Source of the DNA: Mucilaginibacter gossypiicola
Lineage (GTDB): Bacteria; Bacteroidota; Bacteroidia; Sphingobacteriales; Sphingobacteriaceae
Reading direction: 5' to 3'
Assembly (NCBI RefSeq): GCF_900110105.1
Contig: NZ_FOCL01000015.1
Span: 62,001 to 126,000, forward strand
DNA length: 64,000 nt
A model generated the notes under the pieces. That model had not been told where the DNA came from, did not search any database, and saw nothing but the letters and a program-made list of their open reading frames with translations. Each line of letters starts with the position of its first letter. The first letter of the stretch is position 1. The translations under genes and the position numbers were made by a program. Of the stretch, positions 57,698 to 58,543 are shown piece by piece.

Positions 57698-57725
57698 GTG
57701 GTGCGGTGAAACACCGACCACAGGC
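57698..57725 (+). repeat. REP hairpin copy 1
   Basis: GTGGTGCGGTG-AAA-CACCGACCAC followed by AGGC. A 10-bp stem with one bulged G. Forward orientation; loop one base shorter than in the other copies. Confidence 0.85.
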
Positions 57726-57770
57726 AAAAAACAGAAACGGGTTTGCAACGCAAACCCGTTTCTGTTTTTT
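57726..57770. terminator. Perfect long hairpin terminator between REP copies 1 and 2
   Basis: About 20-bp perfect stem (AAAACAGAAACGGGTTTGC and its inverse) with an AAC loop, A run on the left and T run on the right. It should stop transcripts from the glutaminase-like gene. Confidence 0.9.
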
Positions 57771-57785
57771 GTTAATTTTATCACA

Positions 57786-57814
57786 GCCTGTGGTCGGTGT
57801 TTTCACCGCACCAC
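57786..57814 (-). repeat. REP hairpin copy 2
   Basis: Inverse orientation: GCCT, GTGGTCGGTG-TTTT-CACCGCACCAC. It lies 9 nt before the 3' end of the transposase gene. Confidence 0.9.
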
Positions 57815-57823
57815 TTTTTTCTT

Positions 57824-58330
57824 CTACATGTGTTCCATGTAGTGTGTTATCAGTTCATTTTCTTCATTGCTTATATAATATGACGCCGATGAATGCAAAT
57901 AATTTTCAGGTAATTGGCATAGCCCGGCTTTAACCGGGTTGTTGTGTATATAATCTAACTTTTGTTCGAGCACGGTGCGATTATACATTGTTGCTTTATA
58001 TGGTCGTCGTTCCCAAAACTGATACTCGCGGTCGTTCTGAGTACTTTTGTAATTGTCCAAACTTTGCGAAGTGTTTATCAAGCTGAATTTAAGTTGTTGT
58101 GCGGGGAATTTGCTGAAATGCTGTTGTACATTTTTGTTAAGCCAATCGGGTTGTTTGCACCACAAAATATGTACATGATTTGGCATTATCACATAACCGT
58201 AAAGCCATATCCTATTATTCTTTACTAAAAAGCTTAAACTATCGATTACGATTTCTTTGTGGTTATCCTGATCAAGTAAGGGTTGCCAGTTAAGACAGGT
58301 TGCAGTAAAAAATTCTATGCCTTGATGCAT
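57824..58330 (-). CDS. REP-associated tyrosine transposase (RAYT), Y1/IS200-like
   Basis: A 168-residue single-strand DNA transposase. The metal-binding HxH is in YVIMPNHVHILWCKQ (His 52 and His 54) and the catalytic Tyr is in the RAYT signature LDYIHNNPVKAGL (Tyr at about 127). WERRPYKATMYNRTVLEQKL is also typical. It has no IS200-type terminal repeats of its own; instead, REP hairpins flank it: copy 2 at its 3' side and copies 3-5 at its 5' side. This is the layout of a domesticated RAYT that spreads or processes REP elements. The reading frame looks intact. Confidence 0.9.
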   Translation of the reverse strand: MHQGIEFFTATCLNWQPLLDQDNHKEIVIDSLSFLVKNNRIWLYGYVIMPNHVHILWCKQPDWLNKNVQQHFSKFPAQQLKFSLINTSQSLDNYKSTQNDREYQFWERRPYKATMYNRTVLEQKLDYIHNNPVKAGLCQLPENYLHSSASYYISNEENELITHYMEHM

Positions 58331-58364
58331 TGTTGATATTTGTAATACGAATATAACAAATCAT

Positions 58365-58393
58365 GTGGTGCGGTGAAAACACCGACCACAGGC
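58365..58393 (+). repeat. REP hairpin copy 3
   Basis: GTGGTGCGGTG-AAAA-CACCGACCAC followed by AGGC. Forward orientation, 35 nt upstream of the transposase start. Confidence 0.9.
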
Positions 58394-58449
58394 TTTTGGG
58401 ATTTCAATCGTAACACAGTTTATAGTGAGCATAGGTTGTAAGGAATTAT

Positions 58450-58478
58450 ATGGTACGGTGATAACACCGACCATAGGC
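58450..58478 (+). repeat. REP hairpin copy 4 (diverged, base pairing kept)
   Basis: ATGGTACGGTG-ATAA-CACCGACCAT followed by AGGC. The first G has become A and its partner C has become T, so the closing pair is kept. The bulged G is A here. Confidence 0.85.
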
Positions 58479-58513
58479 TTTAAGGACTTTTCAATTTGTG
58501 GCTTAGTCCGGCA

Positions 58514-58543
58514 GCTTGTGGTCGGTGTTTTCACCGCACCACT
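58514..58543 (-). repeat. REP hairpin copy 5
   Basis: Inverse orientation: GCTT, GTGGTCGGTG-TTTT-CACCGCACCAC. With copies 3 and 4 it fills the 311-nt gap between the transposase and AsmA-like genes. Confidence 0.88.

Follow-up and report, generated by a model that had tools for sequence, protein, structure and literature searches.

A tyrosine transposase and its probable cognate family of bulged hairpins in Mucilaginibacter

RAYTs (REP-associated tyrosine transposases) with atypical hairpins have already been published for the Bacteroidetes, as TnpAREP subclass 2.6, equivalent to group 5 (Quentin et al. 2018, PMC6006769); the available sections of that paper call these hairpins atypical and weaker in structure, and state that they were found by manual inspection. 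Recognition of the hairpin has so far been worked out, in the portions of the literature available to us, for groups 2 and 3 of the proteobacteria, and for Escherichia coli the roles of the foot, the bulge and cleavage at CT are given in PMC8266576. RAYTs have been described as unable to mobilise themselves, or as genes that are inherited vertically and present in a single copy (PMC3116915, PMC8049555), and some are reported at novel chromosomal sites, which has been ascribed to duplication or horizontal acquisition (PMC3686654). A survey of REP sequences from 2025 includes some Bacteroidota, and a term search of its text found no mention of RAYT (PMC12306157). Our literature search returned no study of RAYT in Mucilaginibacter, as judged by titles, or of a REP-associated tyrosine transposase in Bacteroidota.

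The locus described here lies in a window, by which we mean the whole 64,000-nucleotide stretch of DNA that was analysed (G000:C13:62001-126000), from a genome of 8.23 Mb in 28 contigs. We read it, with a probability of roughly 0.87, as a REPtron, that is, a RAYT (an HUH/Y1 single-strand transposase) together with its own cognate hairpin family, whose specific recognition and movement by the enzyme we infer. The gene had originally been predicted to encode a 168-residue Y1 transposase with an HVH motif and a YIHNNPVKAGL signature, and inspection of the open reading frame bears this out (Table 1). The protein scores 87.3 bits against the NCBIfam model NF047646 (REP_Tyr_transpos), above the cut-off of 80, and gives a sub-threshold match to Pfam Y1_Tnp (14.2 bits against 23). 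An AlphaFold model based on 23 aligned sequences has a mean pLDDT of 93, and the solved structure closest to it is 4er8, a complex of a RAYT with a REP hairpin (E 7e-9); the ISDra2 and IS608 transposases come next. A single-sequence search of the PDB with the protein gave no match; a profile search found 4er8 at E 0.0018. Residues N51, H52, H54 and Y127 are invariant among 17 aligned RAYT members. On the basis of sequence and model the product is a RAYT with a predicted HUH/Y1 fold, in which Tyr 127 would have the catalytic role that it has in the RAYT family. A search of phages gave no match, and a search of plasmids found seven records, at no more than 34% identity.

Five hairpins (w1 to w5) surround the gene. 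Each folds as 5 bp, one bulged purine and 5 bp closed by a loop of 3-4 nt, with folding z scores of -2.9 to -4.9 relative to shuffled sequences. The 3' foot is AGGC in four of them and AAGC in w5, which read GCCT and GCTT on the other strand, and the predicted set of five bulged 10-bp hairpins, with this foot and with copies on both sides of the gene in both orientations, could be mapped in full. A compensated closing pair had also been claimed for the fourth copy, and in w4 the outermost G-C is indeed replaced by A-T on both sides, with the bulged G changed to A as well. The bare arm GTGGTGCGGTG was rejected as evidence, as it occurs in the window at chance level (13 found with up to two mismatches, 10.4 expected), so that only the complete hairpin counts. 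The perfect 22-bp inverted repeat between w1 and w2 is probably the terminator of the neighbouring gene and lies outside the unit; terminator-like hairpins 3' of this gene were also seen by eye in four relatives that lack the RAYT. Long inverted repeats between hairpins are found in addition at some loci of a third RAYT clade (clade 3; L010, L160, L162).

Table 1. Positions of the RAYT gene, its hairpins and adjoining features, numbered from the first letter of the window.
Feature	Position	Strand	Remarks
Hairpin w1	57698..57726	+	3-nt loop; outside minimal unit; faces inward with w2
Perfect 22-bp inverted repeat	57725..57771	.	terminator-like; between w1 and w2
Hairpin w2	57785..57814	-	unit end downstream of gene: A-rich inner side, hairpin, outward AGGCT
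Minimal hairpin-RAYT-hairpin unit	57785..58394	.	610 bp; outward feet; same layout in 8/8 clade-1 loci
RAYT gene	57824..58330	-	168 aa; NHVH at residues 51-54, Tyr 127 in YIHNNPVKAGL; NCBIfam and fold match
ATGATT adjoining hairpin w3	58359..58364	-	
Hairpin w3	58365..58394	+	unit end upstream of gene; on gene strand: outward AGCCT, hairpin, inward ATGATT
Hairpin w4	58450..58479	+	outermost pair compensated (A-T); bulged A; faces inward with w5
Hairpin w5	58513..58542	-	AAGC foot

The hairpin is not confined to this locus. A pattern describing the full hairpin has eight exact matches in the 8.2-Mb genome, four of them at the locus, and the reversed control pattern has none. A covariance model, R1, made from ten hairpin copies gives 17 matches at E<1e-4 in the same genome, ten of which are the copies used to build it; five lie at the locus and 12 on seven other contigs, so that the gene is flanked, as a RAYT/TnpAREP gene should be, by REP hairpins that recur in its genome. 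Away from the locus there are five close pairs (on C7, C10, C14, C16 and C17), all with their feet facing outward and with 40-80 nt between the hairpins, the second member of the C7 pair being weak (E 0.26). As inverted REP doublets repeated in the genome, these pairs are what is understood by REPINs. At the locus itself the pairs w1/w2 and w4/w5 face inward, which we counted against the REPtron reading, and inspection by eye of close pairs away from RAYT loci, among the matches listed, found at least 13 outward, at least two inward and at least four in the same direction.

The minimal hairpin-RAYT-hairpin unit has the same layout as these dispersed pairs. At all eight clade-1 RAYT loci of the genus, clade 1 being that of the window RAYT, the nearest hairpin on each side faces outward; upstream it starts 52-191 nt from the gene, and downstream the distance is 9-49 nt. 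In the genome of the window, ATGAT stands beside the hairpin at one end of four of the five dispersed pairs, as it does at the upstream end of the RAYT unit. Similarity of the interior to the RAYT leader extends beyond ATGAT in the C17 pair (p=0.01-0.02), does not reach significance in the C14 pair (p=0.07-0.16) and was not detected in the remaining three. From the shared outward layout and the shared ATGAT, the dispersed pairs have the appearance of RAYT units from which the interior has been deleted. Three of them are absent from the matching sites of relatives with a spanning match (three, two and one genomes), where the borders of the empty sites are not placeable to the base because these relatives are divergent. 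Another repeat, of the type ATGTCATTGC ... GCAATGACAT, adjoins several REPINs (flanks of L017 and L025; also L135 and L137) and occurs at the window site in relatives.

Comparison among 149 Mucilaginibacter genomes, eight of which carry a clade-1 RAYT (69-100% identity) and 141 do not, ties the hairpin to this type of transposase. At E<=1e-4, R1 was found in all eight clade-1 genomes (median 15 copies, or 14 when the genome of the window is left out) compared with 58 of the 141 others (median 0), a difference with a Mann-Whitney p of 3e-7, or 2.5e-6 if only off-locus copies are considered, those at the RAYT locus having been counted by hand. The hairpin is therefore not equally abundant in genomes without the transposase, although its numbers are low even in those with it (6-31 copies per genome). 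A second model, R2, was built from hairpin copies of clade 2, whose RAYTs are 43-50% identical to that of the window; the clade-2 set comprised 36 genomes with such a match of about 130 bits or more, and G024 and G112, in which R2 copies are numerous and the RAYTs are incomplete or disrupted but probably of clade 2, were scored as lacking clade 2, contrary to our own reading of them. R1 exceeds R2 in 8/8 clade-1 genomes and R2 exceeds R1 in 36/36 clade-2 genomes, in counts taken among the matches listed (the best 50 or so per genome) and with models built from copies in some of the genomes tested. Each clade is associated with its own model, clade 1 as above and clade 2 at p=2e-13, and no cross-association of a RAYT clade with the hairpin of the other was found in the 149 genomes (p=0.84 and 0.89). 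This double dissociation of two clades shows each RAYT type with its own hairpin family. Where the original prediction spoke of a self-contained REP-spreading unit, the link of RAYT and hairpin thus stands, and the spreading is the part that we infer.

The same comparison shows that presence of the hairpin needs no resident RAYT, given that R1 occurs in 58 of 141 genomes without one of clade 1. Eleven of these 141 have at least six R1 copies, with 26 in G124, and R2 is present in 72 of the 113 genomes outside clade 2; in Pseudomonas, orphan hairpins have been attributed to loss of the RAYT (PMC3686654, in the parts available). Such orphans, together with the low copy numbers, are what would be expected if the hairpins were fossils, left by a RAYT that has been recruited for another task and moves them no longer. 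The RAYT of G049 (G049:C9:30451-30959) also fits this idea, since it matches in two pieces in different frames and is probably inactive, in a genome that has 14 hairpin matches. We nevertheless consider a fossil origin quite unlikely for the family as a whole, because near-identical copies exist within the genome of the window, pairs present here are absent in relatives, and the HUH and tyrosine residues are kept in 17/17 aligned members.

It has also to be considered that the hairpins are ordinary intergenic elements acting at the RNA level, as terminators or stabilisers of mRNA, with the transposase merely lying among them. Ten of the 12 off-locus copies do lie between predicted ORFs, the C17 pair overlapping a 120-aa reading frame, and none of the 27 REP-bearing gaps is divergent, as if promoter regions were avoided (control gaps 4/13; a gap could be defined at 27 of the 33 sites). 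In addition, the core of the w2 stem scored as terminator-like, and two of 17 copies (w2 and C11) are preceded by an A-rich stretch (at least six A within 8 nt), which on the opposite strand reads as a T-run following the hairpin; w2 may thus double as a terminator, as a T-run follows it on the + strand. The other 15 copies lack such a run, however, and the clade-specific double dissociation with RAYT type, the outward layout of the pairs that matches the RAYT unit and a conserved foot outside the stem speak against a function in RNA. Separate terminators were found in 1/27 REP gaps against 2/13 control gaps, in a test that is small and insensitive, and which also counts against this explanation. 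Overall we regard it as very improbable.

Returning to the REPtron, the substitutions among hairpin copies are consistent with maintenance of the fold. In 115 hairpin matches from this and other genomes, 61 of them distinct, 95.8% of cells pair, as against 91.9 in shuffled data. When the 61 distinct copies are aligned, in an alignment fitted to the structure, double changes appear at four pairs, mainly the outermost and an inner one, so that the compensation seen in w4 recurs elsewhere. The outermost pair is GC in 38 copies, AU in 10, CG in three, GU in three and unpaired in five; the inner pair is CG in 44, UA in seven and unpaired in seven. In a sister hairpin family the closing pair takes all four Watson-Crick types among 11 distinct, hand-picked copies. 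These paired changes support a constraint on the hairpin, although templated repair or correction of imperfect palindromes could produce them as well.

Phylogenetic analysis of 49 RAYT cores resolved clade 1 (support 100/99), clade 2 (94/89) and the union of the two (98/100); the tree program warns of long branches, including the one that joins clade 3 to the others, and seven of 56 loci were left out because a motif search found no frame in them (L013 and L015 have SHVH in place of NHVH). As judged from the hairpin sequences at these loci, hairpin types follow the RAYT tree. Clade 1a has GTGGT-purine-CGGTG/CACCGACCAC with the foot AGGCT, clade 1b (G141 and G012) has GTGGTTGGTG/CACCAACCAC, mostly unbulged, clade 2 has NTTGTTGGTG/CACCAACAAN, mostly with GGC, and clade 3 has hairpins of the GTTGYCTGTG or GTTGCCGTG types. 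Clade-1 hairpins have GCCT/GCTT (AGCYT) as their foot and those of clade 2 mostly GCC; neither clade has the canonical GT[AG]G, which counts against the REPtron reading. As subclass 2.6 is described without GT[AG]G (PMC6006769, in its available sections), the AGCYT foot is non-canonical and does not place these genes outside the RAYT family.

Similar arrangements extend beyond the genus. A REP-like hairpin lies within 250 nt of 40 of 60 RAYT loci from other genera, compared with one of 288 largely coding control windows; the filter that defines "REP-like" was chosen after the hairpin families had been seen, and the 60 loci remain from 80 listed after 20 were dropped as belonging to the same genus or having short flanks. 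A score-based test for inverted flanks outside the genus was set aside in favour of this hairpin count, as its shuffled control contains the same hairpins and is uninformative. In Pedobacter, Daejeonella and the Chitinophagaceae, orthologues are found with both kinds of stem, C and T, and with bulged as well as unbulged hairpins. In an alignment of orthologues, the sole position that separates inner-stem C from T (position 20; eight versus six orthologues) is variable and was rejected as unconvincing, and no residue separating bulged from unbulged hairpins was found in the same alignment.

The genome of the window encodes seven RAYT-like genes, five of the six paralogues scoring above the NCBIfam cut-off and L010 below it (72 bits). 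Inverted repeats flank at least L010, L012, L013, L014 and L015, and these differ from one another. With up to two mismatches allowed, 20 matches to the L013 hairpin were found in the genome (reversed control 0), among them five close pairs oriented as around the L013 gene, and the L010 hairpin occurs at five genomic places, two of them at its own gene. The gene directly upstream of paralogue L012 (G000:C17:136581-138289) is one that we take to be recA.

If the REPtron reading is right, the RAYT would bind its own hairpin in folded, single-stranded form, with the AGCYT foot guiding cleavage in the role played by GTAG in gamma-proteobacteria. Via Tyr 127 it would excise and re-insert the stretch between two outward hairpins, so that small pairs, as MITE-like versions of the unit, would be moved in trans, and hairpin copies would decay after the RAYT is lost.

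The positions of the RAYT genes suggest that more than the small pairs may be displaced. We compared the sites of 30 clade-1 and clade-2 loci from 30 species (435 pairs) with those of recA in 26 of these species (325 pairs), after removal of three RAYT flanks no longer than 150 nt. A flank is shared by only four of the 435 RAYT pairs, compared with 213 of the 325 recA pairs, and both flanks are shared by 2/435 and 12/325, respectively. RAYT units thus stand at different places in most species, which suggests relocation of the whole unit, unlike RAYTs that have been called domesticated. For example, the unit of G077 is missing at the matching site of three relatives. At the window site the RAYT is present in G090, while G031, G015 and G116 have different repeats there and G025 a different sequence, so that the RAYT of the window is absent at the matching site of four relatives. 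By eye, decayed w5-like remnants are visible at this site in G116 and G031, which lack the RAYT, and the G015 site matching 57698-58542 (L136) carries about six head-to-tail repeats that resemble the L013-family hairpin; from such inspection the window site appears to receive REP sequences whose family varies with the species. Genome G078 has two copies, 95% identical, of a 783-bp unit that belongs to another RAYT clade (L291, 569-1351 and 2602-3384); their borders fall in the terminal inverted repeats, and the 1.25 kb that separates them is not duplicated, an arrangement that looks like movement of an entire RAYT unit.

It is possible, if rather doubtful, that the whole hairpin-RAYT-hairpin unit is still mobile in the style of IS200/IS605, with REPINs as its MITEs and a RAYT that is not domesticated. 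The rarity of shared flanks, the empty sites and the doubled unit of G078 are all in keeping with this. However, each of the eight clade-1 genomes has a single match at E<=1e-45, and thus no multiplied, near-identical copies of the unit as would be usual for an IS200/IS605 element. By the measure of both flanks, moreover, recA fares little better than the RAYT, and rearrangement, deletion or recombination between hairpins could relocate the unit without catalysis by the RAYT. Divergence of the RAYT also partly follows that of the host (Mantel r=0.43, p=0.002, in 19 clade-2 genomes; clade-1 identities broadly follow recA), which makes descent combined with relocation and loss likelier than free horizontal traffic. 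The wider proposition, that Bacteroidota RAYT-REP units in general are undomesticated, that the gene relocates within and between genomes, that REPINs are its internally deleted MITEs, and that divergence of the hairpin goes hand in hand with that of enzyme specificity, extending to the bulge, which may be lost or gained, seems to us to fall somewhat short of an even chance. Were it true, it would provide dozens of natural RAYT-hairpin pairs from which rules of recognition could be read.

What distinguishes the present material is a matched set of RAYT clades and hairpins, together with the sign of relocation of the unit. The RAYTs of one genus fall into three or more related clades, and from clade to clade the hairpins are distinguished by a few compensated pairs, by the bulge and by the foot; the two clades tested match their hairpins cleanly, so that recognition of the hairpin and self-movement of the RAYT unit become directly testable. 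The system is of a known kind, within which we regard it as a well-resolved new member, and is to be compared with subclass 2.6 of the Bacteroidetes. Like subclass 2.6, as set out in the available sections of PMC6006769, it has a Bacteroidota host, a protein of about 170-180 aa with NH[LIV]H and YIH[QN]NP motifs, hairpins on both flanks that lack GT[AG]G and further hairpin copies elsewhere in the genome, whereas the W motif is WE in the clades of the window RAYT and WQ in that paper. With E. coli TnpAREP and its REP/BIME sequences (4er8; PMC8266576, in part) it shares the HUH/Y1 fold, a bulged hairpin, a conserved tetranucleotide at one foot and inverted pairs, but the foot here is AGCYT and not GTAG, the bulge is a single base and copies are few. 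The inverted doublets, a separate hairpin for each RAYT and an abundance that depends on the cognate enzyme recall the REPINs and RAYTs of Pseudomonas, so far as the accessible parts of PMC3116915 and PMC3686654 describe them; in contrast to the RAYTs of PMC3116915, single-copy and incapable of self-mobilisation, the unit described here stands at different sites in most of the 30 species. TIRtrons and their TIRYT genes (PMC3733652, in part) are Y1 genes flanked by recurring inverted repeats, which resembles the situation of paralogues L012 and L013, while the window RAYT is flanked by short REP-like hairpins. With IS200/IS605 elements such as IS608 and ISDra2, the window unit has in common the Y1 fold and hairpins at both ends, and it differs from them in existing without multiplied copies.
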